The translations under genes were made by a program, and so were the position numbers. A stretch of DNA of 64,000 nt, taken from the NCBI GenBank assembly GCA_023653785.1, contig JAMKCH010010172.1, forward strand, positions 124,001 through 188,000, given 5' to 3'. Shown piece by piece: positions 31,880 through 57,146 of the stretch (position 1 is its first letter; every line of letters begins with the position of its first letter). The DNA is from Ophioderma brevispina. Its lineage: Eukaryota > Echinodermata > Ophiuroidea > Amphilepidida > Ophiodermatidae. The notes under the pieces are model-generated. The model was not told the DNA's origin, made no database searches, and saw nothing but the letters and a program-made list of their open reading frames with translations.

Positions 31880-32040
31880 GTACGATTACGATAGCAACCA
31901 AGTTCAAAACCAGGTTTGTGGTTTTCCTGTTTACCTGTTTGTTCAATAAAACCTTTTAAACGGGTGTTCTCGGTAGGTGGTCCTACAACCGATGCAGTAA
32001 AATTTGAGAGAATTCGTATCAAAAAATCCCTTCACCTTAA
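31880..32040 (-). repeat. H-family MITE fragment (copy 4, inverted)
   Basis: Read on the - strand it runs from TTAAGGTGAAGGGATTTTTT through ATACGAATTCTCTCAAATTT and ACCACCTACCGAGAAC, as in 40999-41361. It breaks off near 31880. It abuts segment alpha at the same TTAA where the beta copy has an H element in the opposite orientation. Confidence 0.65.
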
Positions 32041-33111
32041 ATAATCTTCAGTTAGTAGCATCATAATTGTAAGGAAGTCGGTAAAGATATTTTGCAGAGA
32101 GAATACAAGGTTCCTATTGATACCAAGATCATTTGATGGAGTGAAGGTTAGGTCAAGGGCAGATGACGTGAAGTGCTCTTAACCATAAAATGACGAAAAT
32201 GTTGGTTAAGAATTTTTACACCTATTACTTTATATTCACTAAAAAAATCACTATCCCTGTAAAAATATTGCCCCTGCAAAATTTCCCATCGATAACCTAT
32301 CACTTTGTTAATTCTCTCATTTCAAAGTATAACTCGCCTTAATTGTTGTGTGTAGTTTCTTGAGGTAGTCCAACCAGCATTTTTGTGTCGCCTGCCTTAA
32401 ATTAGGAAGAAACATAGGGGTCACTTTGTCCTCTGTTGATGTTGTCTGTTGTGAAAAAAGGGTTAACATTTGCCTGTAATATCCGCACACTTCTAGTCAT
32501 ATCTGCAAAACATGGGATTCCTCATTTGTTGATGAGGTCAAAGATCACATACCAAGGTCAAAGGTCATGTGAGGTCAAGTTGTAAGATAGTCTAAAAATG
32601 TAAAATTGACCTCAATTGATAAATTGAATTTAATTCGGAACCAAACTTGGTTTATAATACTACACGCAAACCCTCATTTGAGGTCAAAGGTCACATCAAG
32701 GTCAAAGGTTATACGAGGCCTATCAATCACAATCTGCGACAGCAGGCGACACTAGTGGTTCGAGGACCACATGTATTTTCTAGCACTAATAGTTGCTTAA
32801 TTTGCGTAACTCTTCATATACACTGCTCAAGTTTTGCCGGAGTAAATATTAGTTTCGTCTTTCCTGCAAGTCGAATAGTTGATTGATAATTTACAACTGG
32901 TATACATGGGTCCCACACCGCAAACAAGGATTTTCAAGGGTTTTAAGGTTAGTCTGAGCCCGAGGGATTCGATTGGTACTAGTAGAGACGCTACTGATAT
33001 CAGGACCTACCTACTCCCATAACCAACATAAAAATGCATGATATTGAAAGATGGCCTAAACCGGTTAAGGGTAACAGAAGGTGACAACAATATTCCCGAG
33101 GATCTCCCAAA

Positions 33112-34342
33112 TAGTCGTAGAGATATGGTCCAAGTTGTGGCCTGACCGTAAAGTTGGGTATATACACATTTTTTTTTTTTTGCTGAACGTGATAGATAAG
33201 GGTGTGTAGAATTATAATCTGCCGGGTGCCACCTTGGCACCCTTGGGCGTTTTGAGAAATCCAAGATGACGTTGTCATAGATCATAATTATCTATTTGAC
33301 CCTATATTATCAAACTATGGAGTTAATAAATATACTTATGACCCAATGAACGAGTGCATGGCACCTGTAACATTGAGTCATTCTTCAAATTCAAAATGGA
33401 AGCCAAATCTAATAATATTAAAATATGTCCTATAACAGCAAATACCTGCGATAAAAAATAAACATGAAGTACTTAGATTATGTTGTTAGACAAAATAAAT
33501 GTATTTCTGATACTTTTAAAGTTGTAACATGACGTCAATCAATATGGCAGCCAAAAATGTGAATATCTTCAAAAAATACTTGACACAAATTTCTAAATAT
33601 TACCTTCAAGTATAAATTATTATGTCAATGAAACAATTAGAAATGTACCTATGATCATAACCAAGTGATACCAGGTAATCCCTATAAACGTGTCAAATTA
33701 TAAATTGAGTGCAATATATGTGAAAAAATTTAATTCCTATGGTATTTTGACAACTTTGCACCATTTTTATTTCGATTTTGGCGCATGTAAAACAAATTGA
33801 AGTGTATGTTGTACAGTGGTTAGGATCAAAGGTACATTTCTAATGTCATTGACACACTGATTAAGGGTGTAATACTTATAAATTTGTGTCAAGTATTTTT
33901 AGAAGATGTTCACGTTTTTGGCTGCCGTATTGATTGACGTCAGGTTACAATTTTAAAAGTATCAGAAATATATTTATTGTGTCTAACAACATAACCTAAG
34001 TACTTCATGTCTATTTTTTATCGTATGTATTTGCTGTTATAGGGCATATTTTAAAATTATTGGATTTGGCTTCCATTTTGAATTTGAAGTATGACTTAAT
34101 GTTACAAGTGCCATACACTTGTTCATTGGATCCTATAGTATATCTAGTAACTCCATAGTTTGATAATATATGGTTGAATAGATAATTACCATTTATGGCA
34201 ACGCCATCTTGGATTTCTCAAAACGCCCAAGGAAGCCCAGGTGGCACCCAGCAGATTCTTATTCTATACACCCAATCTATCATTTTCAGTAAAAAAATGT
34301 GTATACTCAACTGTACGGTCATATGAACATTCTCTCTGACTA
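33112..34342. mobile_element. 1.23-kb near-perfect palindromic element
   Basis: Arms of ~560-600 bases (33112-33700 and 33790-34342) are inverted copies around a ~90-base loop. Paired landmarks are CCAAGATGACGTTG with GGCAACGCCATCTTGG, GACGTCAATCAATATGGCAG with CTGCCGTATTGATTGACGTC, and CATGAAGTACTTAG with CTAAGTACTTCATG. The uninterrupted site CTCCCAAAGTATCG exists at 51501-51514 and near 52810, giving exact limits and a possible 3-bp AAA duplication. The element has no coding capacity and could fold into one long hairpin. Confidence 0.85.
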
Positions 34343-35576
34343 AAAGTGTCGTTTGTGCTCTTTGTGAGCTACCAGTGAGAAATGGCGGGGGAAATTTCAA
34401 TGGCTATTTGTATCGTCAAGTGGTAAAAAAATACTAGCCTAGTCTGAGCCCGAAGGATTTGTTGGCAGTGGGTGGGGGGCGCTACTGATACCATGACTTC
34501 CCTGCCCAACCAGCACAGAAGTGCGCGATAGATCGAAAGATGGCCTAAACCAGAAGGGTAACAGAAGGTGATAAAAATATTCCTGAGTATCTCCTGGAAG
34601 TATCGTTTGTACTCAGCTACAAGTGAGAAATGGTGGGGAAAATTTCTATGGGGATTTGTATCATAAAGTGGTCAAAAAATAAAAATACTCCCGATTTCAA
34701 AACAAATGGGTTCAATTTATTTCTCTATCACAAAGATTTGAAGCATAATTTACACTATTTGCATTGATTAGTTGCGAAGGTACTTTGGAAATAAGGTCAA
34801 CGGCAATTTGATCTTCCAACCCAATGCATTGCATGGAATAAAATGTAGTATACAAACATCCGGACAAACATATTCCTTCTCCCCGGTATCTCATTCGTAT
34901 GTCCTGCGCTATCAATTATTATTTTACCGTATTTTAAGTATATTAATCTCACATTTCCCTATCTCGACCCTGAGGTGAGATGCCCGTCGGCAGGTGATCG
35001 GAAAAGTAAACTCCGAAAATCACCATGCAAATCCAAAAGGTAATAATGCGGAATGGTGTGTACTTCCGTAGAATTTTCATGCTAAAATTATTTTTTGGGG
35101 GGGTTTCAATAGAATAGGTATAAGGCTATAAAGGTTCAAGGTCACCAAAAGCTCAGATGCTGTTGAAAGCTGTGCCAAGTGATTCCTGTCGTCATACTGA
35201 AACAGAAATGCATTTAAATCATTTGAAGATAACACCATTTGTAACATCCAGGGAAAGTGTTAGTGACTCCCATGCACCATGTATACCCTTGATACATTTT
35301 ACCATTGTCCAACCAGATTGCCACACACTGTAAAATAGTATTTTTTGGATCCTATGAGACAATACGAACAGCTTGTCACCAGTTTCAACAAAAGCTCAGC
35401 ACCAGGTAAATTTTACCCTAGGATGACCTTGAACCATTATGTGGCTATACCGCTTTAACTAAGGTTGGAACCCATGCAAATATATACTTTTGGCAATCCT
35501 TATAAGGAGACAAACCTTTAGTGTACAATGAAACATAATTTGACTCGATTTCAAATTTCCCCTTTAGGCGACGAAA

Positions 35577-35888
35577 ATAAAAAAAAAACCTGTTTTACGG
35601 GCCCGACCGACCTTGATTTTTCAGTTTTGCAGATTTTTTTCCCCCAAAAATCATGTAAAATCAGCCTGTTTTTAGCCCAAATTTATCAATTTTGGCAAAT
35701 ATTTTTAAGAAAATTTGTTTGTAAAAATTTTTAATTTTTTCTCTTGATTTTTCAGATTTTGGGGCTATTTGAGGCCAATTTTGAGCTCCAGAAAAGAAAA
35801 AAAATTAAAAGAAAAAATTCGCCCGCCCGACCGACCCTACTCGAAAGGTCCGCTCGCCCGTAAAACAGGGTTTTCTTTTTTCGTCGCC
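35577..35888. mobile_element. GGCGACGAAAA-ended MITE with TTA target duplication
   Basis: Terminal inverted repeats of ~33 bases start GGCGACGAAAATAAAAA and end TTTTTTCGTCGCC, with CCTGTTTTACGGGC and GCCCGTAAAACAGG just inside. TTA flanks both sides (35574-35576, 35889-35891). The beta copy near 56975 lacks the element. A TTA duplication is typical of PIF/Harbinger (established); assignment is inference. Confidence 0.8.
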
Positions 35889-36043
35889 TTACTAACATTT
35901 TGCCTCTTGAAGGGGCAAGCAGTCTGAAAATTTGAACCACATTAATTTCTGACAGTCTAGTCCCAATTGAATCCATTGAAACAGCAAGAAAATCAATTTA
36001 AGCACCAAATTGCTACGGCAACTGTATCAATGACATACCATTC

Positions 36044-37138
36044 TGTTATGACATCTCGTAGACGTCAAAGGTCAGAAATACCTTTTAAAACAAAACTAAA
36101 TGAGCCTTGTGCACAAGTGATCTGAATTTTATAATATAACAGATTTAATGACTTGTAATCGGTTTGGTTCAAGAATTTGGTATGCCCAAAACATAATTAC
36201 AATAACAACTAAGATACTTAATTTCAAGTCCTCTAGTGTTCTATGTTGCAAGAAGCGTTGCAGTTCAACGATGATTTGTCCTCACAGCGAAGACTCCAAA
36301 ATGACAGCACATAAGTTCACATAAATATCCATTGTATACTCCATGCGAATCTTCTGAGTCTTGAAGGTAATTTTGTCCAGCAGTTCAAGACGACGGGGTT
36401 ACCCTCGACGACACTAATATTCAGCAATACATTCCAGGTATTCTACCACCATCAGTCTGTCGCTACTCGCTAATGTCCTCATAATAGGACCACAAACTGG
36501 AATCCCTTTTTGATTCCAAAACTGAAGCTCTTCTGGCTTAAAAGACGACAACAGACAGTTTAATTAGTTTTCAAGCTCCGGCGGTCTCCAAAGTATTACA
36601 ATGTATAAATCCTGGCACTATGCAAGAACGAATCTACCATTATTGTATATAGATTAAACTAGCTATAACTATACTGTATAGCTTCCTTCCTGGTTACTAC
36701 TGCTGGCCTCAGTCCTTCCAGTGACATGTATTTAACTTCTCACAGCTAGATTCCCCTTTCTAACAATAATCATTACATCATCATGCATAAACATAACCTA
36801 GCACTGTCAAATCAAATTTCACAAAAATTACATCATCTGAATTGCTTCATTTCACATTTATAACATCATTGGGGAATCCCCAGATTTTGCAATATGTTTT
36901 TCTTAAAGCATAAACAAGTTGACTCAGTTTTTAAGTTTACATCTTGGGGAATTCCCATTTCCCCTATTGTGCAATCTATCTCGTTGTAAATAACAGGTGT
37001 GAGCTCAATATAGCACTTGGGAATCCCCTGCTCTCTTTTTATCATAAACAAAGTACTTTTCCCGTGAGAAATCTTTTCTCAAATAAAATTGAAAATGAAA
37101 TTAATATTTTTAATCTCAAAGATGGAGGCTATATAACA
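36044..37138 (-). repeat. 3' LTR of the Ty3-like element
   Basis: Termini are TGTTAT..ATAACA in element orientation. On the + strand it starts TGTTATGACATC and ends ATATAACA. The length is 1095 bp, against 1087 bp for the solo copy at 24514. The flanking alpha sequence ACCATTC stops exactly at 36043, and beta continues uninterrupted there (ACCATTCCCC at 57122). Confidence 0.85.
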
Positions 37139-37154
37139 TCCTCCCCCTTAAAAG
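37139..37154 (-). other. Polypurine tract
   Basis: On the - strand TTTTAAGGGGGAGGA lies immediately before the LTR start TGTTATATAG. This is the expected plus-strand primer site of an LTR retroelement and fixes the LTR boundary. Confidence 0.75.
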
Positions 37155-37323
37155 AAAATTTGAATGAAATGAAAATTTTCAAAATCTAGCTTTATACCTT
37201 AAACCATTTTGTGGTTAATTTTACATACATTTACACAGTGCAAATTTTACAGTTTTTACGTTCTTGCATTGCTGCTTTCAGTCTATATTACAAGTTTTAA
37301 TATTGCATTTCTGAACAAAATTT

Positions 37324-37440
37324 AAGCAGCTCTGGGCAAGGCATCTGCCAAGACATTTTCTTCCCCTTTGATATGTCTTATGTCCAGATTGTATTCCTGT
37401 AGAGTTAATCTCCAGTGGGTTAAATTCTTGTCAGGCGGAG
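37324..37440 (-). pseudogene. C-terminal RNase H fragment of Ty3-like pol
   Basis: On the - strand the frame encodes PPDKNLTHWRLTLQEYNLDI, then RHIKGEENVLADALPRAA and a stop. This is the canonical end of a Ty3/gypsy RNase H (LTRW..LQEYN..I.HIKG..N..ADALSR). Ending pol here, rather than continuing into integrase, supports the integrase-first order. Confidence 0.8.
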
Positions 37441-37559
37441 TTTCTAATTTATCATCCACAAAATTTAATCAAAATACGATTCATAAATTAGCATTGGGTA
37501 CATTGTTCCCCAATATGCATCAAAGTGCAGTTTGACTGGATCTGAATTTCCAAACTCAC

Positions 37560-38370
37560 TTCTACTTGGTTCACTGAGATGCTGCAATTTGATTGGATTC
37601 ACCCTATAAGGATGTTGCTTTATAGGCTCGGAGTCACCTACATCAATGTCATGGGTTATGACATGTGGCTCACTGGGTACATCAGGAAATATGTTTTCCT
37701 ACTCATGAATTAACTCTTTCAATTCACCTTGTTGACCTTGTGGGAGGTGACCTAGTTTCTTGTCTAAATTGGCAAGTATGTCAGAATTTTGCAATTTGAC
37801 ACCATAATCATTTTCTGTGTTTACAGTGCTGTCTTGTTCAGGTACAGACTCTGTGATGTCATCATTAACACTGGATACTACACATGCAGGCTCAATAGTA
37901 TCACCTCCTTCTCTTGAGGGGGATAGCATATTTAGTGACATAATTGTCGACTTTTACGTCTACCTGGTGTTTTGATGACATAGTCAAGGTCTCCCACTTT
38001 GTTCTTAATCTCATATGGTCCAGAATACTTGGCTTGCAAAGGATGCCCTTGTATTGGAAAAAGTGCCAAAACTTTGTCACCTGGTTTTAATATTCTCGTT
38101 TCTGGCATCTTTGTCATACCATGTTTTAATTTGGCCTGGCTCTGTTTGAGATTTTGTTTGGCAATTTCTGTGGTTCTTTGGAGCCTGTGTCTGAATTGAG
38201 ACACATAGTCTAGCAAATTCACATCAGGATTTTCTTTCAGTAGTTTCAATGGTCCCCTTACTTTGTGACCAAACACCAACTCAAATGGACTAAATCCTAA
38301 TGACTTGTACAGCTTCCCTGGTAGCAAATAACAGGAGATGAACTCCCTCATCCCAATCCCTCTCAAATTC
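37560..38370 (-). pseudogene. Integrase C-terminus, linker and RT start of Ty3-like pol
   Basis: From 38.37 kb downward the - strand encodes SLGFSPFELVFGH and KVRGPL, then the integrase GPY/F-type module (LKPGDKVLALFP, KYSGPYEI). An acidic linker with LDKKLGHLPQGQQGELKELI follows, then an in-frame stop near 37700, then FPDVPS and HDIDVGDSEPIKQHPYRVNP, the start of reverse transcriptase. Most of RT is then deleted. The continuity from integrase to RT start within ~800 bases shows the domain order directly. Confidence 0.8.
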
Positions 38371-38374
38371 AAAA

Positions 38375-38635
38375 TAGGTTTTATCATGGGCTATGCCTAT
38401 CACTTCCCTATGGTATATCTTTGGCACTACAATTTGATGCACAACCTAACATTCCTCATCTACAAGTGCATCGGGTGGCCGCCATTTTCTCATGAGGACA
38501 CCATTTTGCTTGTAGAAACATACAGGAATTTGCTCGGCTTCCTGTTGCGTCAATGCCCTCTCACCTAATTTCCTAAGTGCTGGGTCATTTTGTTGTTCAT
38601 TTACCAGCTTGTCATTGCTTAAAGGGTCTCCTTTA
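38375..38635 (-). pseudogene. Integrase N-terminal remnant of Ty3-like pol
   Basis: The - strand encodes LSNDKLVNEQQNDPALRKLG, FYKQNGVLMRKWRP, and after an in-frame stop VVHQIVVPKIYHREVIGIAH. This is the region leading into the zinc-binding part of a Ty3 integrase. It then jumps to FERDWDEGVHLLLFA, a sequence normally ~200 residues further on, so the DDE catalytic core has been deleted. A frameshift separates this from the next fragment. Confidence 0.75.
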
Positions 38636-38835
38636 CACAAACTGGAATCCCTTTTGATTCCAAAACTGAAGCTCTTCTGGCTTAAAAGACGACAACAGAC
38701 ATTTTAATTAGCTTTCAAGCTCCGGCGGTCTCCAAAGTATTATAAATCCTGGCACTAAGCAAGAACAAATCCACCATTATTGTAGATTAAAACTAGCTAT
38801 AACTATACTGTATTATAGCTTCCTGGTTACCTTAT
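38636..38835 (-). repeat. Truncated 5' LTR fragment
   Basis: CACAAACTGGAATCCC onward matches 36491-36690 of the 3' LTR for ~200 bases (CTCCGGCGGTCTCCAAAGTA, AACTAGCTATAACTATACTG). The LTR end nearest to pol is missing, so LTR sequence joins directly to the integrase remnant. This indicates a deletion spanning the LTR end, primer-binding site, gag and early pol. Confidence 0.8.
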
Positions 38836-40998
38836 CTACGACGAATGACGTGCTTGGCAGAATTCTAGGATGCCAGCCTCTAGTAGTAGAGTATCCAAGA
38901 AGTAAAGCTTCAGCCTCAAGTAGAACTTCAACTCACTGCAATGTGTTAAGCTTATAAGCTTAACTGTGCTATACTGCCTGCGCCTGCAAGGTTGTCAAAT
39001 TCGTAGCTATGCTGGCTACAAGGTTGTCAAATTCGGCAACCCATTTTGATAGAGATTCTCACCAAAACCAACACAAAAATAGATCATAGCAGGGCATGAC
39101 AGAGGTATTTGGGAGTTCCCTAGATGTTATTAGGAACTCCTATGGGGAGCTTGAACTCAGCAGGTGGAATTTTAGGAGAAATTGTGCAGAGCAACTAGAG
39201 ACATGTCTGCACAGCTCAACCCCCACTTTGTTTCTTTGTTTTGTTTCTTTGTTTTGGAGTTATAGTGTAAAAATGACTAAAACGGTAAAAAGGTCAAATT
39301 CAACTTGTACAGGGTTCAACATTGAAAGTTATGCTGATTATATTTTAAGTACTTCTAAATTATTGCCTGAGGAATGAGGACTCCCAAAAAGTATAGTTGT
39401 GATTATGTTAAATTACTACTACCCTCCAAGAAATCGCTAAATATTTCAAAATTTATACGGAAAAGTTGTGATCAATTTTGGATATGTTATAAAGAAAGTC
39501 TTGCGAACAAATTGTGCAACTCTCATTTTCCTGAAGCAAGTTAACTCGCGATAGCAGCTCAAATAGAACATGAATTTTCTATACAAATTCTAGGGGAGGC
39601 GTATAGTTGTGTGCACCCTTTAAGCGCGCAAGCAGGGGGCTAGTCTCGTTATACGGCCTTTTGGGTTGGTACATTAGCAATATCACACACTTTATTGTAT
39701 TTTTATCTTTTTTCTATTTTCCTAAAACACACTAATGTTTACTCAGACCAAATTATTAGGGTTTTCTCTTCGTATTGCTCTTTAAATGGGCAAAAACAAA
39801 ATCAACTATGTAACTCAAATACGGTTGGCTCAAACACGCCGCACATACTGGTTGGTCAAGTCGCAACGGATATTGTCTCCCAATCGCTAGTAGGCCTACA
39901 GTACATGGCTTTTTTTAAAAAAAAAATCGTTTTTATATTCTCTATTTTAACCTCGCAATCGTTGTCTAATATAAGGCAGGTCCTATAGATCGTTTCAAGA
40001 CTTAATTATAATAACCTTTCTCATTTTTCCTTTTAAAATCTCCGATTTTCCTCCTTAAGTGAGTCGGGGGGGGGTGGGTCGCAGTTTGTTTAACGCGCTC
40101 ATTTCTAAATGCAGATACAGCCGGAAAACGCCCGACTTTTTGTTGAAAGGCAATCTCACCAACGGACTGTACTAGATGAATCCTATTTGGCCACGTTTAT
40201 ATTATTGTTTTTACTTGTTTATTTGTTTTATTGTTGATTTTGTCATTCTGATCCGATTTTTAGAGACTTTTTAGCACGTAAAAGGGTCGCATGAACCTGA
40301 AAAGTGGGTAAATCGAGTCAAATTTAAAACGGTCTTTTTTTGTCATGTTGTTTTTTGCTGCATCTTGCATAACCCGGGCGAAAATCCACATTTCATTAAT
40401 CTGTTAACCTAATAAAGCTCATACGGTTTTTAAGTTCAAATTAAAATGTTTTACACACCATCGCAAAGGTAATTACAAAATATGATCTATCAGTCACTTA
40501 AGGTACGTCGGCAACTTTGAGAGGCTTTTCAGTCCGGGCAAAGTCATGGATAACACGCGCTAAACTCAAAAAAAAAATCGGTCAAAGTGATTGGTTTGCG
40601 TATTGGTTCGTATCTTTGAGAACCCTATCTCTAAAACTAAACACTGCTCAGAAAGTGAAATTTCGACGAATCAATTTAACTTTTTATTAGCTATCTTTTG
40701 ACATAATATATAATTATTGAGGGTCGAAAAAAATTCTCGCTAAGGGTCCACCACTAATTACCCCTTTTGGCGGCCACTTCCTTCAAAATATCACAGCAAT
40801 AGTCCGTACTTTTTGATAAATATAGGATTCAATAAGATGCTCCCTTGATTACAACAACATTTTACTCTCTTCATTGGAAGTTCCATCACCACCCAAAATT
40901 TAAAATTTGAATCCGACATACCATTTTAATGTGATCCGGCAGTAATTGTGTTTATTACAATAGCCCATAAAGTTCTGTACAAACTATTTCTGGTTACC
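38836..40998. other. No gene recognised
   Basis: Contains a short direct repeat (AAGGTTGTCAAATTCG near 38988 and 39021), G8-10 runs near 40067, and AT-rich sequence. The frames at 39096-39377 and 39695-39988 show no domain, and splice support is absent. Confidence 0.35.
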
Positions 40999-41361
40999 TT
41001 AAAGTGACAGGAGATTTTTTAGGATACGAATTTCTCTCAAATTTCACTGGATCGGTTATGTAGACCACCTACCGAGAACGTTTCGAAGGTTTATGGATAA
41101 ACAGGTACAAAAGAAACCGCAAACCTTGTTTTGAACTTGCCTGCTATCATAATCGTTCCCAATAGAAAACCATGCTTTGACTTTCTGTCATGCACAACAG
41201 AAACTACTAAATCATCATCTTATTACATAAAGACGGCGTATTCGGCTGATTCACTTCAGGTGTGATCTAATACATTGGTAAGCATTCCAAATATGTAAAA
41301 AATCGGGGTTCGAGAAAAATTGGGGGCGCTTCTTCCTGGAAATCTCCTCATGTCTATTTAA
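40999..41361 (+). mobile_element. TTAA-flanked MITE, H family (best copy)
   Basis: TTAA at 40999-41002 and 41358-41361. Ends are AGTGACAGGAGATTTT and GAAATCTCCTCATGTCTAT. It contains GGTTATGTAGACCACCTACC and AGGTGTGATCTAATACATTG, shared with 3364-3670 and 13133-13474. It marks the left edge of segment beta. Confidence 0.8.
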
Positions 41362-41523
41362 ATAATATTTTAGTTTGTAGCATCATAATTGGAAGGAAGT
41401 CAGTAAAGGAATTTTGCAGATGAGATGAGAAAAATACAAGGCTTCTAATGATACCAAAATCATTTGATGGAGTGAAAGGTGCCGGGGAAAGGTGAGGTCA
41501 AGGCAAATGATTGGGTAGTGCCT

Positions 41524-41871
41524 CTAAGGTGCATGTTCCCAATTTATGTCGATTGTGTTCTCAACTTGATATGAGAGCCTGGCACTTGCACATACGCCCG
41601 TCAAGTACTGTGGGAAACAAACTTTCGTTTTTATGGTAGACGCAATAATGTATATTGCAAAGCCCAATTCAATACTGTGCTAATATTCATGATTAACCAT
41701 AAATACGGTGTTTTTGTTTTATATCTTTGGAATGAAATGGATTTGAGGGCTCGACGTTCAGGACGACGATGAGAAAAATATGACCTTTCATCTGATATCA
41801 AAATCGATACGACTTCCGGGTAAATGGGGGTGGGGATTCCCAAAGACGTGTGTCGCCTGCGTAAGCAGAAT
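41524..41871 (-). mobile_element. TTAA-type MITE, family F (inverted copy)
   Basis: The left end is TAAGGTGCATGTTCCCAATT. It matches 61755-62099 in reverse: TCAACTTGATATGAGAGC, GACGCAATAATG, GAAATGGATTTGAGGGCTC, GATGAGAAAAATA. The right end is decayed. Segment alpha has the empty site GTGCTCTTAACC at 32174-32185. Confidence 0.75.
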
Positions 41872-42651
41872 AACAGCACATTCTGAATATCGCCCCAATT
41901 ACTTCAAAAGTTTGAGCTTTTTGCAGTTGGTTTTCATGTTGGTAATTGCCTAGTAAAAATCCCTGTGAGGGTAATGCTCAAACATGCGTATTTGCATAAA
42001 AGAAGCGAGTTGTAATTTAAATCAGGATCCCGGATAGTGTAATTTAATGGCGGACTGAACGCCAATTTTATGTCTGTCCATGATGAAATAGTGGTCACAT
42101 CAAGCGAATGATCTCTAACTTGACTGCCTGAACTGAGCGAGACACGTACAATGGCGCATTTTCCGGCGGGGGGTGGTGTTATTTCATCTTGGAAGACGTT
42201 TCCTCCGGCAGCCATTGAATGATTATCGGAGATCTCGATATTAATTATTCTAATTACAAAATTCCTCATTTTCGACATATAGAGAGTTTTAGCTCTACCA
42301 TTCACAGTATTGTTTAGTAGTCCATTACCATGCAACTGTGCAAAAATTAAAAATATTAAAAAAAAATGGGAGCGCTCTTCAAAAAAATGTGCTGTTACTG
42401 CTTTTAGTGTGGCCGAAACATGGATCACTTTGTCCTCATTTGATGTTTGTGCTGTTGATGTTTGTGGAAAAGGTACATTTCCCTCTAATATCCGCCACTT
42501 CGAGTCATAGCTACAACATGGGATCCCTCATTTGGCGATGAGGTCAAAGATCACATACCAAGGTCAGAGGTCATGTGAGGTCTATCATTCAAAATCTGCG
42601 ACGGCACGCGACACTAGTGGTCAGAGGACCGCAATGTATTTTCTAGCACTT

Positions 42652-43134: not shown

Positions 43135-43245
43135 CAAAAGTTGCTTAACTCTTCATATTACAACCATTTAGTGTTTATACACTGCTAAAGTTTTGCCGGA
43201 GTAAGTATTAGTTTCTTCTTTCTTGCAAGTCGGTCGATAATTTAC

Positions 43246-43577: not shown

Positions 43578-43665
43578 ATAATTACAAACGGTATTACCTG
43601 GGTGCCACACCGCAAACTAGGATTTTCATTTTCAAGGGTTTTAAGGTTAGTCAACAGTTAGGTTA

Positions 43666-44022: not shown

Positions 44023-44196
44023 TTAGTCTGAGGGATATAGTTAGGGACGTATGATTTTGGTCGTGGTTTGAGACGAGGGAGGGAATTGGTTGGTAATAGT
44101 AGGGGACGCTACTGATTTTAGGATACTCCCATAACCAGCACAAAAAATGCATGTAGCATTTGAAAGAGGACCTAAACCAGTTAGGGTAACAGAAGG

Positions 44197-45879: not shown

Positions 45880-48620
45880 CATGGGCCTGGTAAGAGGATC
45901 TTTACATACACAAAACCACTAGCAATCCCAATGTTGAAAAACAACTGTTTACCATTGATCGTAATACAACGATTATTCCATATGACTCAAGATGAGGTTT
46001 TTTAACCTCATTCAGATTTCTACATTGTTTTACACAATAACCAGTGAAAAGGCATTTGAAATAAAACATCTCGGGACTGGAATGCACTCCAAAGTAGAAA
46101 TCAAAGCTTTTCAGAGCATTAATTTCAAATAAGGCATTCCACAGCCAATTTTGAAATACACAGTCAAGGATATTCTCCAAGTAGCGGGAGACTCCTTCTG
46201 TAATCGTTTCACAACCAATTTACTATGAAAGAGTTGATTAGGCTAGGGACATGAACCATATCAAGTCCACCTTGTAACTTTAGTCCCATCACGGTATGTG
46301 GCGTTTTAAAACTTTTAAAAAAAAAAAAAAAAAAAAAAAATAATAAAGTTTTCAATTTGGGCAAGTCACCTTTTTTTGGAGCATCACAAAGCTGAGAGGG
46401 AAATAAAATTTGGGAAATAAGCACACGATTTTATGATCACAATTTACATTGTTGTAATCTCTCCGACTTCCAAAGCTGAAGAAAAATCCTTATACGAATT
46501 TTGCTAATTCCGTGAGTTTCCAATATCATGAATATTGCCGGCTGGTGTTTTAATTTGAAATACAATACCTATGTTTTGGCTCTTGTACAATCGATCTTCC
46601 ATTTAATGTCGCCAATTTTCATCTCTACGATCATTCATACCACCAATCCACATCCATCAGTTTTTACTTCTTTAAAAAGAGCCCAGCCCCGTGGCGATGA
46701 TCCAACAGTGGCTAATGATGTTAAGATAGAGGATCATCAGCAGGATAGAGTGACTCATACATACAAATTTATTTGGGCTTCTGTGATAGAATAATCTTTA
46801 TGGGGCAGAGGAATACCACGAATTGCGTATCATTTTGTCTTATTTTAAGGCAAGTATCTCCACCACCACTCCAAGAATAAACACAGTGAACTAACGTGTA
46901 CAGCCTTGCCGCGCACACCTTTCTTGAGATCCAACGAATCTTGAGCGCCAACCATTATGGTTTATACAACTTTGTGTATTATATAATAAAGTACATACAC
47001 CCATTTTTGAAAGGATGAACCAAATTATAATACTCTATGCATTCATAAAAGTCACGGTTGAGGCTGTCAACCGCCTTAAAAAATCAAGAAAAAGGCAGCA
47101 CCAGGAGTTTTTTTTGATTCTGGTAACCGGGAATATCGTCAATCAATCTTAATTTGTTCGGCATACAACGCCCTTTTAATTAATAAAACCTGTTTGAGAG
47201 CCCCGTCGACTATATCATGAATGACACCGATTGTAATCTTTTGGCTAGAACCTTAGCAGCAATTTTAGTCAACGTTGAGAAGTGGATTTGGGCGGCCAAT
47301 TGTTTGAGATCTTTTGGACGTCCTTTATCTTTCAAAAGAAGTGTTATAACCCCCTGCTTTTGTTGTTGTCGTAATTTCCCCATTTTCATAGCCTCATTTA
47401 AAAACTATCGATAACCATTTTCCAACCTGATTGATCCCACAAAGCTTTATACGTTTCCAACAGTAAGTCCATCTAGGCCTGGACTTTTATCATTAGCCAT
47501 AGAGTCCCAAGCGCCTTTTTGCATTCGTCAAGCGTAAACATCCCTTCACAACGTTTGACGTGATTCGTCAGAAAGTGAAGGAATATTGATATCATCAACA
47601 AAAGTAATTATAATTAATACAACTTCCTTTTTGTGGAATAATTACAATCATACAGCTTTTTCATAAAATTTACATTCTCGTTACGTACAAGTCGTCTCAA
47701 TCTGTAACTTCCTGAACATCTTCGTTTATATAATGAATGATACATTTGCGATCCCGTTTATTTTTTCGAGATTAAGAAAAGAATTTTAGAGTTTTTTTTC
47801 AGCCATTTTCATACCAGTTTTACTCTTGATCGAATTATTGCCCTTTATTTTTATCATCCATGCAATTTCATAATCAGTAATAGTTTTTTGAAGATTATCA
47901 CGAATTATTCGATCATTTGTATTATCTCTGCCAGCTTGGAATATAAATGCTGAATACGCTTTTCAAGATTAATGCATATTATTCTGTTTCTAAAAGCTTA
48001 TTCTGACCAATTCTGGAAAATTACGATATCATTTTTGCAATGATCCATTTCATACTGCATAAATGTTATTAATATTGTTTTTTTACAATCAATTAATGAC
48101 CTGGTACAGGCCATTATATATCCTTCCTCAATTGAGCAGACTATTATTCATCTTCCATCACCTGGGCCCTTTTGTATCTCTCTAACTGAATCTCATAGTT
48201 TACACATTTCATGGTCAGATTTTTGGGCAAATGAATGATAGCACATTATTTACACAATTAAGAAGACCTTTATTTACAAACAATAATTCTAGTCTGCATA
48301 AAATCGTTGGAGAAGTTTGCCTCCAAGTATCATTTTGGTTTAAGATGTTTGTTACGACGGACGCCAAATATCCTCCAGATCAAGAGAGTAAAGAATCTCT
48401 GTTAATTTACTTACACTGGAGCATCGGCTTTAAATTGCCACCAATTTATCAGAGTTGATTTAAGGGGACCATTAAATCACCACCAAGTGGACCTCTGCCC
48501 TGGCCAATGCTGTAGGAATCCAAAACTTTTGGTCATGTCAACATAAATTTTACCCCTCTTTCCAGCACGATTATTTAGGAGCATATGTTCCACCATATAC
48601 CAAATTGACTCATTAATCAA
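45880..48620 (-). pseudogene. ORF2 remnants (endonuclease, RT, C-terminal) of the L1/Tx1-like LINE
   Basis: Endonuclease tail near 48270-48490 (WRQTSPTILCRLELLFVNKG). RT start near 47550 (MFTLDECKKALG), then across frameshifts IVDGALKQVLLIK and near 46850 LALKIRQNDT. The catalytic YADD region is scrambled (LYVCMSHS-like), so activity is lost. The C-terminal part at 46280-45900 reads MGLKLQGGLDMVHVPSLINS and NALFEINALKSFDFYFG. More than ten frame breaks occur. Confidence 0.75.
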
Positions 48621-49464
48621 ATATTCCAAACAAGGCAACGATATTACGCTCATCACTTACTTTAGGAATATTTATCTAAAGTTTGTAATTCAGAGATGTT
48701 TTTAAATTAAAATCATCATACCTTGCTACTTATTTTGTACCTGGTGAGAAATATATATCCCAATCCCATGTGCTTTCGCTTCTATTCCTCCTCCCTTCTT
48801 CACAATCAGACTTAGTACAATAATCTTCTGTGATAAAAAATTATCAGCTTTTTTTGTCTTTAAAAAATGGAAAAGCGCTTAGCGTTTATTTTTATTTCTT
48901 AACCACGAACATTGGCCAGTTAAAAGTTTTATTGCCATAATTGAGAGAAGAAATGGATGAATGGCAAAAGCCAAATGGGTTCAGACAGTTAATAATATCA
49001 GTCCATATGAAGGGAAGATATTCCTACCCCTCTTATCTGGGGTTTAAACACATCGTTATATCCTTTTTGTGTGAAATTTCTTTCCTTTAATTGTCATTTG
49101 ATTGGACATACTTGAATGATTTCCATTATGGTTCGATTACATCGCGTTTTGTTTGATGATGGGTGTATTTCTTGCTTCTGAGTCTTTACTTTGCTTCAGT
49201 GCATTGGAAGCGTGAGAAGTGTTAGATTTAGTTACGTTGCTTTGAAGACTGTGAAGGCAGTGATTTAGAAGTGGATCTGGCATACAGTAGATCCAGCGTC
49301 TCTAACAGCGTTGTCATTGCTACTAGTATCAGCCAAATCTTTGCGTGTTTCTACAATTGAAGACGCTGAAGAGGATTTGTCAGCCGAAAGACTTCACAAA
49401 TATGTTCTCTACTTTTTTTGCAAGTTCTGGTGACGAAGGACCCTGGTGATGGTTCCAAGGAAGA

Positions 49465-49870
49465 TCAAGAAGTTACAAAATGAAATAAATTTTCATCGTA
49501 TCTTGGAGATTTGGCTTGCATTAGATCGTGATGGAGACTGATTCGCTTGATTAACATACCAACAAAAAACAGAATCTGAGGTAACTGATGAATGCATTGT
49601 TTATCAATGTGTCCCAAGTCAGGACAAACACGAAAGCATCTTGGGTCCGCGGTTACTTGGGCCAGTTTGATTTCTAAATGACCTTCCTCATTGCATATGA
49701 CGCATTTAAGTTTTGGGTTTTGCTTCGCACTCATTGATCAAGTGAGCACCATGGCAAAAACTACAGTTTCATGGGTTTTTGTCCGTTATAAAACAACTGA
49801 AATTTGATGTCAACTAGTTCAGTCTCATCAACTGGATTAGGAACCGTAATGTGTTGAATCTGGGTGTGGG
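49465..49870 (-). pseudogene. ORF1-like protein fragment with CCHC zinc knuckles
   Basis: The frame encodes KLKCVICNEEGHLEIKLAQV and DPRCFRVCPDLGHIDKQC. These are a partial CCHC knuckle (its last Cys lost to Leu) and a second with altered spacing. Upstream, in another frame, VDETELVDIKFQLF precedes what looks like a third knuckle (FCHGAHLINE). This fits the nucleic-acid-binding ORF1 of Tx1-type LINEs. Confidence 0.65.
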
Positions 49871-51029
49871 GGTAAACACCTCAGAAACGTAGCAAAAGCG
49901 ATGACCACTCTTCAATGAGCATCTTTTTATTTTGTTTTGCTCCTTTGCAATATGGTCATGCGTTCAGTTTTCTCTTTGGCAATGAATCAATCCGCTGGGT
50001 GATGTGGTCTTGATCACTAAACATCTTTGTGGAATGCCAGTATGCTCAATCTGATGGTTTTTGACTTTTATTGTTTTGAGCCGCGTCTTTAAAATTTGGA
50101 TACTTCAAATGTTCGTCGTCCCCTTTAATTGTTACCGATCCATTAGCTAGAACTAATTGTCTTGGCTTGAACTGATGACAAGTTTACTATCCCATCCGTT
50201 GAGGTGCTATCATCCATTGAACACCTAAAAAATTCTCGGGGCGAGGTGATCATCTTGACAGATTCAAAATATGCCTTCAGCTACATCTAGTTCGCTCACT
50301 CTAAAAGTTGAAGGTATTAAAAATCTTAACCCACAGAGATTCGGGTTTTTTTTAAAGGGTCTTTGTTTGGTCATTGTTTAACACAGGAGTATTAGTATCC
50401 ATGGTTGCAACTGCAGCGTAGTTACACAATGAAACCGTAGACGGAGCAGTGTCACGATTACGGTCTTTAGTGTAATGCGATTCCAGACTGTGACACAAAA
50501 GTCAACGTTGCGGTAATCATCGTGAGTATGTCCAAACACAGCACAGAATGTGACCAAAATATCGCGAATTCCAGGACTTAAAAAAAAACAGTTTGAAAAA
50601 AATATCACCAATTGTTCACAATTTAATACGTATAATGAATTTTTGGGCACATACAATTCTACAAAAGCGATAAAGGCTAAAAGTAATTTAAAATTGCATC
50701 GACGAGTCGACGCTAACTGAAGCACACAGTGTACGGTGATAACCACACAGAAATACTGCAAGTTTTAGGTGGAATTCAAATCGCTGGAAGTTTTAAACAC
50801 AGTTTCACACTCGTCGCTGAAGACAAAATACTTGCTTTTTCACACATTCTGCTAGTTATATTAGATCTTCCTTACGTAAGAAGATATCACAAGAACGTGA
50901 TGGAAGACAGTCTGTGGTTATAAAGTTATATTGTCCCGTCAAAAGAGTAGATTTGAATGTTGAAAATCAAGCTCTAAAAAGGACGACTCTAATCACCATT
51001 GCGTTCAATTCCCGTGCAACCGCATGAAT

Positions 51030-51474
51030 ATCTGTATCTTTAGTTGCCTTTTGCAAGCAAGTATTCTATCACAGCACAATGAAATAAAGGAGCTAATACT
51101 CTCCCTGCATACCCCTGTTGAACGAAGGAAAGGCTCCGAGATATTCCCATCTACCATACGCGCTTTGAATTGCTGTAAGGACCCTTGCTTTTTACCACCT
51201 GTCTGGGATACATAGTGCCCGAAGAACCTAGAACATACCTTCCGCTGTTGATCGAGTCAAAGCTTTCTTAAAATCGATTAAGGTGATGGTGATGGAAGTT
51301 GATAACTCTGAAAGGCCTCCATGATTCCCCTTAGGATGTGACCTGCTTTGGCACAGCTTCCCTTGCGGCAAACCAGCTTGGTTTGGATCTTAGTATAGGA
51401 TCAATGCCCGTATTCTTTAACAGATTTTGTTGTAGACTTTTGCTGACACTGACATCAAGGTAATTCCTCTGTTA
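51030..51474 (-). mobile_element. RTE-like LINE, 5'-truncated half (RT fingers and palm)
   Basis: On the - strand: NRGITLMSVSAKVYNKILLK, then SKPSWFAAREAVPKQV, KKALTRST, and EYLLAKATKDTD just before the L1/Tx1-like insertion. These are RT motifs NYRGITL..KVYNRIL, QAGFR and FDS, all decayed. It ends at host sequence GTGACAACATTT, where alpha has AAGGTGACAAC. Confidence 0.75.
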
Positions 51475-52467
51475 GTGACAACATTTCTATTCCTGAGGAT
51501 CTCCCAAAGTATCGTTTGTGCTCTTTGTGAGCACCATGAGAAATGGGGGGGGGGGAATTTCAATGGGCTATTTGTATCGTCAAGTGTGTAAAAAAATCCC
51601 GAGCCTATTCCTGAGCCCGAATGATTTTGTTTGGCAGTGTGGGCCCTACTGATATCATGACTTCCCTACCCAATGTACCAGCACAGAAATGTGTGATAGA
51701 TTTTGAAAGATGGCCCAAACCAGAATATGGGTAACAGAAGGGGATCAAATTTTCCCTGAGTATCTCCCGGAAGTATCTTTTGTACCGGCTACAAGTGATA
51801 ATGGTGGGGAAAATTTCTATGGGGATTTTATCATAAGTGGTCAAAAATAAAAATACTTCCGATTGCCAAGACAAATGGGTTCATTTCTTTCTCTAGTCAC
51901 ACATAAGCATAGTTTACCTATTTACATTGATAGTTGCTATGTACTTTGGAGTTGAGTGAGTGAGGTATTAAAGTGTAACGACAACTCAACACAATATTTG
52001 CATATCGTGTCATAAGATTAAAACCATCACAACCTTTATAAACTACACCACAATAAATTCTACGTACAACATTTTTTTAAAATTTAAAAATTTTAAACAA
52101 TCAGCCTCTTCAGGCAATTTAATCACCTGAAGAGGCCTTAAATCTTGAAATAGGTGTCAAATCTGGGACAGCTGTAATATTTTCTACGAGCGCATAATCA
52201 ACACTCAGTAATACATGTTTTCACAGAAAGGGCACAATCACAACGAATACACCGAGGGACTGGTTCACCTCTAAGCAAATAACAATGGGTCATAGAAGAA
52301 TGGCCAATTTTACATGCGCTAATGACAATATCGTCCCTTCTCCATCAAACCTAACACCATCAGCTCCAACAGTTTGGTTGAAAGCATGCATTTTAATTAT
52401 TAGGAATGAATTCCACAGCATTTGCCCGAGTTCTGATATAGCTATTTAACATCTGCTTTTGGAAGTG
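51170..52467. repeat. 1.3-kb tandem duplication, copy 1
   Basis: Contains RTE-like fragment, host block, then the first ~500 bases (3' end) of the I-like LINE, ending at TTCTGATATAGCTATTTAAC. Copy 2 starts at once. Compared with copy 2 it has many single-base deletions that destroy the RNase H frame. Confidence 0.8.
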
Positions 52468-53775
52468 CTGTAAAGACGCCTATGGCTTTTACCACCTGTC
52501 TGGGATCAACCATATTGCCCGGAAGAACCGAGACCATACCTTCCTGTTGATCGGTCAAAGCTTTCCTGAAAATCGATGAAGGTGATGGTAAGTGGAAGTT
52601 GATAACCTGAAAGGCCTCCATGATTCTCCTTTGGATGTGAACCTGCTGTGCACAGCTTCTACCTGGGCGAAAACCATGCTTGGTTGGATCTTAGTATAAG
52701 GATCAACATGCTCTCGTATTCCTTGTTACGATTTTGTTGTAGACTTTGCTGCCACTGACTCAAGGTAATTCCTCTGTAGGTTGACAACACTTATAATTCC
52801 TGCGGATCTCCAAAGTAATCGTTTTGTGCTCTTTGTGAGCTAACCAGTGAAAATGTGGGGGGGGGGAATTTCATATGCTATTTGTATCGTCCAGTGGTAA
52901 AAAATACTCCTAGCCTAGTCTGAGAGCCCGAAGGATTTGTTGGCATTGGGGGCCTACTGAATCATGACCTTCCCTCCCCACTGACCCACTAGAAATGTGT
53001 GATGATTTGAAGCTGGCCCAAACCAGATATGTGTAACGAAGGTGTACAAAATATTTCCTGAGTATCTCCCGAGTATCTTTTTGTACTCCGGCTACAATGA
53101 GAAATGGTTGGGGAAATTTCGAGAATTGGGGGATTTTAATCATAAGTGGTCACAATAAAAATACTCCGATTGCAAAACAAATGGTTTCAATTTATTTCTC
53201 TAGTCACAAATAAGCATAGTTTACACTATTTACATTGATTAGTTGCGAATGTACTTTGGAGTGAGTGAGTGAGTATTAAAGTTTAACGACAACTCAACAC
53301 AATTGTGTCATATCGTGTCATTAAGATTAAAAACATCAAAACCTTTATATAACATACACCACAATAAATTCTAGTCACAACATTTTTAAAAAGTTAAAAA
53401 TATTTAAACAAATCAGCCTCCTTCAGGAAATTTATCACCTGAAGAGGCCTAATATCTTGAAATAATGTTTTCAAATCTGGGACGCTGTAATATTTTCTAC
53501 GAATAAGCGCATAATCAACACACTCAAGTAATACATGTTTCACAGAAAGGGCACAATCACAACGAATACACCGAGGGACTGGCTCACCCCTAAGCAAATA
53601 ACTATGGGTCATATAAGAATGGCCAATTTTACATCGCGCTAATACAATATCGTCCCTTCGTCCAATCAAACCTGAACTACCAGCAGCTCCAACAGTTGGT
53701 TGAAAAGCATGCATTTTATTATTAGGAAATGAATCCCACAGCATTTGCCACCTATTTCTGATATAGCTATTAACT
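52468..53775. repeat. 1.3-kb tandem duplication, copy 2
   Basis: Begins with TGCTGTAAAGACGCC matching TGCTGTAAGGACCC at ~51170 and runs collinearly to TTCTGATATAGCTATTAAC at ~53770. Breakpoints fall inside two unrelated mobile elements, so the duplication postdates both insertions. Confidence 0.8.
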
Positions 53776-54365
53776 AAAGCCTTAAAATCTGTAAAGGGCA
53801 TCTCAGTGTTTGTTATATTCATATTAAGGGCTTCTTTCGCCAATACATCAACCTTTTCATTGCCTTGAATACCAATGTGACTCGGAATCCAAGCTAAAAC
53901 AACGGATTTATTCAATTGAGACAAACTGAAGAATACTTCCAACAGCTCAGCAATATAGGGATGACGACATTCTCTGCCTTTCAAAGCCATAAGACTAGAT
54001 AGTGAATCAGTAAATATAATGAAATGACTCTCATTAGAAATTTCACCTAATTCTAAGGCCAACTTAAGTGCCTGCAATTCAGCAGTGAAAATAGAAGCAT
54101 TATCAGGTAACCTAATCTGACGTTGATCACGCCGACTTAAAACAGCTGCAGCAGCCCTTTCCAAAACCTTAGACCCATCTGTATAAATAGCTTGATGTTG
54201 ATGATATTTATGTCTAAAATCATCAAATTTAGCTTGAAAAACAAGATCATCAGTTAGACCCTTCTTATATTGACATAAAGTTAGGTCAATATCAAGTTCA
54301 ACATTTGACCAAGGAGGACTAATAGGAAAATCAAATGAAGCAATGTTATCAGCATTTGGACACAC
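53394..54365 (-). CDS. RNase H domain of I-like LINE ORF2 (open, 323 codons)
   Basis: An intact frame with the full type-1 RNase H active site: D63 in YTDGSK, E96 in FTAELQAL, D120 in FTDSLSSL, and D173 in GNEKVD, with H163 in WIPSHIG. The tail has a CIRCD..HVLLEC zinc-knuckle-like motif. The enzyme degrades the RNA of the RNA-DNA hybrid during target-primed reverse transcription. It is the 3' part of ORF2, and a frameshift near 54370-54400 separates it from RT. No start codon is implied by the Met. Confidence 0.85.
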   Translation of the reverse strand: MCPNADNIASFDFPISPPWSNVELDIDLTLCQYKKGLTDDLVFQAKFDDFRHKYHQHQAIYTDGSKVLERAAAAVLSRRDQRQIRLPDNASIFTAELQALKLALELGEISNESHFIIFTDSLSSLMALKGRECRHPYIAELLEVFFSLSQLNKSVVLAWIPSHIGIQGNEKVDVLAKEALNMNITNTEMPFTDFKALVNSYIRNRWQMLWDSFPNNKMHAFQPTVGAAGSSGLIGRRDDIVLARCKIGHSYMTHSYLLRGEPVPRCIRCDCALSVKHVLLECVDYALIRRKYYSVPDLKTLFQDIRPLQVINFLKEADLFKYF

Positions 54366-54383
54366 CTGTGAAAAAACCCTCTT

Positions 54384-55331
54384 TTATACGGATTCCAAAA
54401 GATGGAATAGCATTAGGTTTACTAGTATAGAAGTTGGTAAATTGGTGCTTTCATGTGTTGGGATATCAGCATTACTTTTAAGTTTTAGAGCATATTGAAG
54501 AGCTAATTTTTCCCATCTTAGATGTAATGGAGGTTCATTAGCTTCAGTAGATAAGCTTTGCATAGGAGAGGTACGAAAAGCACCCAAGCATAGTCGAAGA
54601 CCTTGATTCTGAATAGGTTCAAGCCTTTTCAAATATGACTTACGAGCAGAACTATAAACAATGCAACAATAATCCAATTTTGAAAGGCGAAGCAAGACTG
54701 AGCGATCTGCACCCCAGTCCATCTTTACTTTAAAAAAATTCAGAGCTTTTTGACATCTCTTCCGCAAGTAGTCAATATGAGCTTTGAAGTTCAATTTACT
54801 GTCAAATATTAAGCCTAAGAATTTAGTCTGTGAAACGACAGGAATAAGAGAACCATTCAATTTAGTTCTGGGTATAGTGGCCATATTTGATGAAGAATAG
54901 GAAATGGAGAAGTCATCTACAAACAATGACTTCTTAATTCCTGTATTGACCACTTTGACAATACTAATAATTTTCAAAAGAAATAAGAGTAACAGAGAGA
55001 ATGCTACCCTGTGGAACACCCATCTCTTGATTATGTATTTCTGATAAGACTGTTCCCAGACGAACCCTAGAAACACGATCTGTCAAAAAAATCTTAATAA
55101 ACAAAGGCATTTTACCTCTAAGTACTAAATTATGCAAATCCTTCAAAATAACATATTTCCAAGTAGTATCATAGACCTTCTCTAGATCAAAGAATACCGA
55201 CACAACATGATGTCCTCTAACAAAACCCTCACGAATAAAAGATTCAAGACGAACAAGTTGGTCAATGGTACTACGACCCTGCCGGAAACCACTTTGACAC
55301 TTAGAAATCAGTCCATTACTTGGTTCTTGGG
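54384..55331 (-). pseudogene. Reverse transcriptase part of the I-like LINE, two frames
   Basis: From the truncated 5' end: QSGFRQGRSTIDQL, FFDLEKVYDTTW (palm A), GVPQGSILSVTL (palm B), then after a frame change at ~54970 KKSLFVDDFSISYS (catalytic FVDD), KFLGLIFDSKLNFKAHIDYL and the thumb. Motifs are well conserved, so the copy is fairly young. It is inactive because of truncation and at least two frameshifts. Confidence 0.8.
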
Positions 55332-55984
55332 ATGTACTTTGGAAATATGGTCAACGGCAATATGATCTTCCAACCCAATGCATCGAATAAAATATGGTAT
55401 CCAAACATATTCCTTCTCCCCAGTATCTCATTTGTATGTCCTGCGCTATCAATTATTATTTACCTATTTTAAGTATATTAATCTCACATTTTCCTATCTC
55501 GACCCAGAGGTGAGATGCCCGTCGGCAGCTGATCGGAAAAGTAAACTCCGAAAATCACCATGCAAATCCAAAAGTGCGGAATGGTGTGTACTTCCGTAGG
55601 ATTTTCATGCTAAAATTATTTTTTTTTCTGTTTGGGTTTCAATAGAATAGGTATAAGGCTATAAAGGTTCAAGGTCACCAAAAGCTCAGATGCTGTTGAA
55701 AGCTGTGCCAAATGATTCTTATCGTCATACTGAAACAGAAAATGCATTTTAAATTCATTTGGTGATAACACCATTGTAATCCAGGGAAAGGTCAGTGACT
55801 CCATGCAACATGTCTCCCTTGATAATTTTACCATATCCAACCTAGATTGCCACTACACTGTAAAATAGTATTGTGGATCCTATGAGGACAATACGAAACA
55901 GCTGGTCAACCAGTTTCAACAAAAGCTCAGCACCAGGGGAATTTAACCTAGGATGACATGAGCCATTATGGGGCTATACTGCTT

Positions 55985-56879
55985 TTAAAGCGGCACGGAC
56001 ATTTTCACAAAATATGAAATTTCTTCAATGTGCTCTCATAGGCCATGAAGAACAGAGATATATTTTACACATTAAATAACATACCCTAAAACAGATAGGG
56101 CATTGATATGAGACCCCCCCACTCCAAACAAATCCCTCCTGTCCTTTGAATCTTAACCTGCCTCCCTCTCCCCCCTCCCTACCCCCACCCCCTTTTTATC
56201 CCCCGGGCCCTCCTCTAATATTATTGATTTTTATCCCCTCCCTCTACTAACCGTCTTCCACACTCGCCCTCACTTCCCCTGCTCCTTCCACTCTCCATCC
56301 GACCCATTTACCCACTCCCCCCCTTCCCCCTAAATACTCTCTCCTAAACCTCGTTCTCCCAATTTTCCCTCTCCGTCTCCCCCCCTTCTCTCTCGCACTT
56401 CCTCCTACAGTCTCCGCCCCACCCTCTCGAACACCTCATTTCCTCTCTTCCTCGTTTCATACTTTCTTACTCTTTTTTGCATTCTTTCCTGGATAAAGCC
56501 ATCCAGGTATTTGTAGGCCAACTTTTAAGTTTTCCATAACTTTAATCAACAAATGTGTATTACATGATATTTTTGACTCGTACTCAATGATATTCAAACC
56601 ACAAAGGTTATAGACGAGTCAAAAAAGTGTTCATAGAGTGGGGAACATGCATACGGCGTGCGTGCTCTTGTGTAAACGTCCATTTTCCTCGTATGTGAAT
56701 GTCGCCGACGACGTTAAATTACAAAATCGTTCTGTTTACCATAAAGGAAGCTGATTTGGTGTAAATCCTTCTCGGGTGAGGCCTTTTGATATATAAAAAG
56801 CTTTGCAACATGCAGAAAATAGTCCGATTTTGAAACATCTTGAGGGCGCACTTTTTCCAATGTGCCAGTGTCTCTGTAA
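55985..56879 (-). mobile_element. TTAA-type MITE, family A (inverted, interrupted copy)
   Basis: Left TTAA at 55985 with end AGCGGCACGGACATTTTCAC; right end CCAGTGTCTCT followed by GTAA (decayed TTAA, 56876-56879). Matches 62378-62913 and 3887-4423 in reverse. Alpha has the empty site CCGCTTTAACTAAGG at 35450-35464. A 379-base pyrimidine-rich block interrupts it. Confidence 0.85.
56113..56491. repeat. 379-base C/T-rich block inserted in a MITE
   Basis: The + strand is almost purely C, T and A, with very few G, and consists of C-runs and CTCC/TCCC words without a fixed period. It sits exactly between GATATGAG and GATAAAG, which are contiguous in the family A copies. It has no coding capacity. 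The boundaries are therefore precise although its origin is unknown. Confidence 0.75.
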
Positions 56880-57146
56880 CTAGGTTTGAACCCATGCAAA
56901 ATATACTTTTGACAATCCTTATACGGAGACAAACCTTTAGTGTACAATGAAACATAATGTGATCGATTCATACTCCCTAATCTACTTTTATTCCCTTGAA
57001 GGGCAGCAGTCTGAAAAATTTCAACCACAATTTCAGACAGTCTAGTCCCTATTAGATTCCATTGAAACAACAGAAAATCAATTAAGCACCAAATTGACAC
57101 GGAAGCTGTAGCAATGGAATTACCATTCCCCAATGTAATATTTAAC

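Follow-up and report, generated by a model that had tools for sequence, protein, structure and literature searches.

In related empty site (RESite) analysis, a paralogous unoccupied copy of a locus yields the ends of a transposable element together with its target duplications. The locus described here lies in the ophiuroid Ophioderma brevispina, in a stretch of 64,000 nucleotides (the window; positions 124,001 to 188,000 of contig JAMKCH010010172.1, assembly GCA_023653785.1), in which one host segment occurs twice, as copies alpha and beta, each interrupted by different insertions. Two further systems bear on it: homotype false duplication, a described type of assembly error (PMC9516828), and the Galileo-type foldback or long-terminal-inverted-repeat non-autonomous DNA transposons (PMC4168063).

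We propose that a ~2.2-kb stretch of animal genome, containing an X-Y tandem repeat and two older dispersed elements, would have been copied once at short range, that both copies would then have taken different transposon insertions, so that most elements of either copy still have their empty site in the other, and that an apparent tandem duplication in beta would correspond to the ends of one locus left unmerged in the assembly, i.e., a homotype false duplication. Taken as a whole, this account of single local copying, separate insertions and a false tandem duplicate is in our judgment a likely one. An earlier note on this DNA had reported the two copies, about ten insertions with readable empty sites, and a chronology ending with the tandem duplication.

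The paralogous pair and its empty sites

BLAST of alpha (32037-36043) on the window returned beta (41358-57128) as collinear blocks in the same orientation. Ten blocks make up 1,865 aligned bases, with 113 substitutions (6.1%) and 114 gap events, a likeness far beyond chance; alpha and beta are a genuine paralogous pair, and the ~3-kb repeat that the earlier note had placed at 32.0-36.0 kb and across 41.4-57.1 kb is real. The ten-block count supersedes a value of 91.8% identity over 2,096 bases, in which alpha 32180-32408 was forced onto unrelated beta sequence; a global alignment of all alpha with all beta scattered alpha across the inserts and was not used. Since the default gap costs of MAFFT masked one-base indels, gap counts were made with other settings.

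The earlier note had proposed to search the genome (2.51 Gb in 65,844 contigs) for other empty copies, and this search revealed a local core and two other host parts that are dispersed. For the core, all five candidates are located in this contig (alpha, the two beta tandem copies, beta's right part and a repeat within alpha), and none was found outside it by a search that skips very common words; the reading of the entire host as a dispersed repeat is hence rejected. In the left block, query positions 58-166 likewise had beta as their sole non-self match among the 40 of 1,401 genome candidates scored.

Regarding the dispersed parts, these are older resident elements which the earlier note had missed. 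The repeat starting at 32380 has inverted ends (GTGTCGCCTGC at 32385-32395 and GCAGGCGACAC at 32742-32752), and at least 38 other genome places start within 10 bases of 32380 (40 of 1,401 candidates scored). The foldback element belongs to a family of ~890 bp found in at least 37 other genome places (40 of 3,001 candidates scored). Its ends, TAGTGTGGGT and ACCCACACTA with at most two mismatches, were both located in 23 of 27 loci, giving lengths of 866-931 bp, and a 3-bp target site duplication (TSD) was present at 19 of these 23 loci and at 13 of the 15 with a single possible end pair; where several pairs were possible, the best-matching one was kept. The same internal part of the foldback element (35112/35117) is missing from alpha and beta, and this deletion, like the X1Y1X2Y2 repeat, predates the duplication. 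Related repeats also recur along the contig (contig positions 114001-124000; window 15490-15753 and 32496-32718), and the window copy of this repeat (15490-15753 / 32496-32718) contains AGGTCAAAGGTCA, which resembles nuclear receptor half-sites.

Most of the proposed empty sites were recovered (Table 1). In alpha, the palindrome is flanked by its AAA duplication and is absent from beta near 51501-51509, where its empty site had been predicted (51501), while the GGCGACG miniature inverted-repeat transposable element (MITE) has TTA on both sides and faces a beta site (~56975) that is diverged yet alignable. In beta, an insert resembling a short interspersed nuclear element (SINE), a minisatellite MITE and a family A MITE are found about where alpha had been read as empty (32788, 32886 and 35455, respectively). 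The tRNA-like head and the approximate TSD of the SINE-like insert were read by eye, and ARAGORN and Rfam scans of the window gave no hit, leaving the head unsupported. The minisatellite MITE has inverted ends and flanks ATAATTTAC / ATAATTAC (by eye), and the family A MITE has a TTAA-type site; a C/T-rich insert of 378 bp (56113-56490) sits inside the latter. At 32949, the inverted ends and TTA flanks of the TTA MITE were confirmed but not a clean empty site, about 16 and about 40 extra beta bases (by eye) being present. The empty site for the family F MITE at 32179 proved to be mistaken: alpha carries 200 bases of other sequence at this point, extending up to the start of the dispersed repeat at 32380, and their local score against family F is 16.5, versus a mean of 18.7 and a maximum of 27 for 60 shuffles.

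Beta also contains long interspersed nuclear elements (LINEs), for which the names RTE and L1/Tx1 serve as labels only. The RTE-like insertion opposite alpha position 33081 was confirmed; its limit at 44197 rests on the gap in alpha, the single genome copy reaching that end matches from 44213, and no clear TSD was found. Reverse transcriptase-like motifs were seen by eye in its broken frames, and three short frames had no Pfam match. Two genome copies of this LINE bridge position 45013 to 51030 with 4 bases between, and since they cross the site uninterrupted, the ~6-kb LINE at 45032-51029 is nested in it, as the earlier note had it. This nested LINE combines, as L1/Tx1 elements do, a poly(A) tail with a target duplication (ATCTGTATCT, 10 bp, at 45022-45031 and 51030-51039); the two short frames scanned inside it had no Pfam match. 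The I-type LINE, for which alpha had been predicted to be empty at 34777, is indeed flanked on both sides by ATGTACTTTGGA (53249-53260 and 55332-55343), with one AGGTACTTTGGA in alpha, and encodes, as I-clade LINEs do, PF00078 (E 1.3e-8; 54964-55350) and PF00075 (E 1e-12; 53394-54383). Its family occupies at least 39 other genome places (40 of 3,259 candidates scored); the query started at the supposed 3' end, which this search alone cannot show, and the bases past that end differ among the fetched genome copies. A protein search gave 450 relatives, with Patella vulgata at 41% among the 120 matches listed, and of ten further frames run against Pfam, one had a match, and that far below cut-off.

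The following order of events is safe: the X-Y repeat and the resident elements came before the duplication, which came before the separate insertions in alpha and beta, and the RTE-like LINE preceded the LINE nested in it. That the host was duplicated before the independent insertions is supported by the core being found only in alpha and beta and by most insert ends coinciding with alpha/beta gaps. The I-type LINE differs from the nearest of eight fetched genome copies by 2.9% substitutions, less than the 6.1% between alpha and beta, in line with an insertion after the duplication. The earlier timeline stands for the host duplication, the independent insertions and the LINE nesting, and probably not for the final tandem duplication; the exact boundaries and target duplications it had promised for most elements hold for most ends, several flanks having been read by eye, and not for the false F site or the unclean TTA site.

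Table 1. Features of the alpha/beta locus, in window coordinates
Feature	Position	Strand	Remarks
Alpha left host block	32037-32179	+	begins at TTAA 32037-32040, where G-family fragment stops
Alpha-only 200 bp	32180-32379	.	unrelated to family F; dispersed repeat starts next, at 32380
Older resident dispersed repeat	32380-32752	.	in alpha and beta; right end inferred by eye
X1, first X of X-Y tandem repeat	32950-33108	+	common to alpha and beta; X1/X2 76.5%
Palindromic transposon, alpha only	33112-34342 (1,231 bp)	.	TAGTCG...CTGACTA ends; TSD AAA 33109-33111 / 34343-34345
Y1, X2, Y2 of X-Y tandem repeat	34343-34681	+	common to alpha and beta
Core of duplicated segment	34343-35040 (698 bp)	+	genome search: this contig only
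Older resident foldback element	35045-36043 (left end approximate)	.	internal deletion at 35112/35117
GGCGACG MITE, alpha only	35567-35888	.	inside foldback element; TTA 35564-35566 and 35889-35891
G-family element in beta	40999-41361	+	TTAA at both ends; inverted ends by eye; adjoins homology start
Beta left host block	41358-41525	+	BLAST/alignment
Family F MITE in beta	41526-41848	.	second copy 61771-62100
SINE-like insert in beta	42651-43137 (about)	-	tRNA-like head and approximate TSD by eye
Minisatellite MITE in beta	43245-43575	.	CGAAGCC... inverted ends
TTA MITE and unexplained beta-only bases on both sides	43653-44078 (GGCC 43666 to GGCC 44022)	.	alignment
RTE-like LINE in beta	44197-51472 (about)	-	3' end near 44197, truncated near 51472, interrupted by nested LINE
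Nested LINE, about 6 kb	45032-51029 (about)	-	poly(A) (poly-T 45034-45050)
Tandem first copy	51140-52446	+	noisy; probable false duplicate
Tandem second copy	52435-53771	+	clean in LINE part from 53261
I-type LINE in beta	53261-55331	-	RVT_1 and RNase H; truncated; 12-bp TSD
Family A MITE in beta	55985-56873 (ends approximate)	.	TTAA-type site
Beta right end of duplicated segment	56874-57128	+	alignment with alpha

The abutting repeat at 51.1-53.8 kb

The two tandem copies differ from each other by 3.5-6.3% substitutions and by 6.8-12.0 gap events per 100 bp. For natural comparison, five palindrome copies show 1.0-2.2 gaps per 100 at 3.9-7.2% substitutions and 27 foldback copies 1.3 gaps per 100 at 4.3% substitutions, i.e., gap/substitution ratios of 0.15-0.45 and 0.31, respectively. 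In the LINE part (496 bp), 23 indels (20 of them single-base) are private to the first copy and none to the second, and eight genome copies have 1-5 each. Measured against seven genome copies, gaps per 100 bp number 6.9 for the first copy and 0.8 for the second. At sites where the second copy departs from the majority of seven genome copies, the first copy has seven of the eight departures. Common derived sites and private indels in the first copy together argue that it would be the same LINE insertion, read with errors. Beside the junction-distal side of the second copy, protein similarity continues for 1,326 bp without a change of frame, although a stop is present near 54384. Errors concentrated in one of two near-identical copies, the mark of a homotype false duplication, were found in the LINE part only, the RTE part being noisy in both copies.

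Judging from the assembled sequence, the tandem duplication is thus most likely a false duplicate, in which unpolished long reads would have put a single locus into the assembly two times. The earlier note had made it the last event of the series, which the 23 private indels versus none and the seven of eight derived sites in common render doubtful. In either case, the tandem pair cannot be dated. A second abutting direct repeat is present in the window (16572-20337 / 20341-24155; 3.8 kb, 77% identity). Its first kilobase carries 12.3 gaps and 4.1 substitutions per 100 bp, and its copies show 8.3 and 8.7 gaps per 100 relative to six genome copies of an inner repeat, which differ by 1.0; 16572-24155 is probably another false duplication.

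Alternative explanations

Several observations weigh against a false duplicate. One of the eight derived sites differs between the tandem copies. Noise is patchy across the assembly and by itself no proof of a false duplicate: copies of window 50007-51008 in two other contigs are separated by 7.1 gaps per 100, and the same value is found for 51031-51139, which is not duplicated. In the RTE part, gaps per 100 reach 10.9 and 8.0 in the first copy and 8.5 and 6.7 in the second, the genome copies differing mutually by 3.9. Moreover, the two-sided noise gradient predicted at the junction is seen only partly: within the host part, successive bins counted outward from the junction contain 10, 8, 10, 5 and 0 indels private to the second copy, and the last bin, in which alpha likewise has 0, spans 45 bases. 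It can be argued that the duplication is real and very recent, its divergence being mostly sequencing noise, all the more as common derived sites prove only a common origin. We regard this as unlikely, though deserving some weight, because two noisy abutting junctions within 64 kb, counting that of 16572-20337 / 20341-24155, would be explained more readily by contig ends left unmerged. We infer that the duplicate is false and not a real one of very recent date, as we do the long-read origin of the noise and the copying mechanism. In the foldback part too, beta is noisier than alpha, with 10.3 and 6.0 gaps per 100, respectively, versus 27 genome copies. As the indel noise is patchy, percent identities that count indels are unfit for dating.

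Regarding the pair itself, its homology ends on the left at a TTAA (32037-32040; 41358-41361), where G-family sequence stops in both copies, the alpha G fragment (31879-32040) lying in the orientation opposite to that of beta's element, and on the right at the foldback element end (36043; 57128). Copying may have been mediated by elements, or the edges trimmed by later insertions. It is conceivable, although quite a long shot, that the palindrome and the foldback element are non-autonomous members of one DNA transposon group (TAGT(C/G) ends, exact 3-bp TSD) and that alpha/beta was copied by macrotransposition bounded by element ends, with the TTAA element on the left and the foldback end on the right. 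Homology limits at element ends, together with the dispersed nature of the 32380 stretch and of about 35045-36043, would also suit two copies of a dispersed composite repeat, but this is extremely unlikely given that the core has no candidate outside this contig and that alpha and beta have the same internal deletion and X1Y1X2Y2 repeat. Alpha and beta could also be the two haplotypes of a single locus set next to each other, a heterotype false duplication, the type that PMC9516828 names as the chief origin of false duplications in its assemblies. The flanks make it very unlikely here: at E 1e-3, nothing in the right flank of beta (to contig position 198000 of 198405) matches that of alpha (36044-41357), and on the left only six stretches are common to the two sides, including G-family and long terminal repeat (LTR) element copies that recur elsewhere in the window, with no collinear continuation found beyond the homology. 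A single copying event at short range accordingly remains our preferred origin for alpha and beta.

Element families and known systems

The palindrome belongs to a dispersed 1.24-kb family (40 of 15,751 genome candidates scored). Ends were located at 19 of 20 loci, the window's own included, and an exact 3-bp duplication at 16 of these 19. Inter-arm mismatches are inherited, 22-30 of the 32 sites of the majority sequence being kept per copy (16 copies chosen for their TSD), so that the palindrome appears to transpose whole, its unequal arms being fixed, and not to be remade as a perfect hairpin. Both long-armed families share the 3-bp TSD of EnSpm/CACTA elements. Their ends are 5'-TAGTC (palindrome) and 5'-TAGTG (foldback), not the 5'-CACT of EnSpm/CACTA. 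PIF/Harbinger elements have 3-bp TSDs, TTA/TWA, and the TTA-type duplication of the GGCGACG MITE, in the single copy examined, is of this kind.

Elsewhere in the window, pieces of an LTR element are found at 36260-38830, including a repeat (36491-36697 / 38636-38830) and, in 37932-38390, an integrase C-terminal domain; inverted relatives occur at 24551-25411. An ATCC-type microsatellite of about 97 units is present at 63612-63997.

The locus is an ordinary transposon-rich one, with kinds of elements already known. Its interest lies in a mutual empty-site pair that fixes the ends and target sites of about seven elements, and in the two dispersed long-armed families to which it pointed, whose 3-bp target duplications are clean. 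It also reveals assembly patches in which one-base indels are several times commoner than between natural copies elsewhere in the assembly; in such patches, events should be dated from identities, reading frames or tandem duplications only with the support of reads.

As in RESite analysis, the unoccupied copies of alpha and beta give element ends and target duplications, with the difference that here the two copies are each other's empty sites, the F site failing and the TTA site being unclean. The abutting repeat resembles the homotype false duplications outlined in PMC9516828, where under-collapsed sequence is ascribed to read errors and can share one scaffold; the criteria given there are read depth, k-mers and read pairs, whereas the evidence here is the assembled sequence, and here the two copies abut without a gap. 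Finally, the palindrome and foldback families are reminiscent of the Galileo-type transposons, as presented in PMC4168063, by their very long inverted arms, their dispersal and the absence of visible coding sequence, and are distinguished from them by TAGTC or TAGTG ends and 3-bp target duplications.

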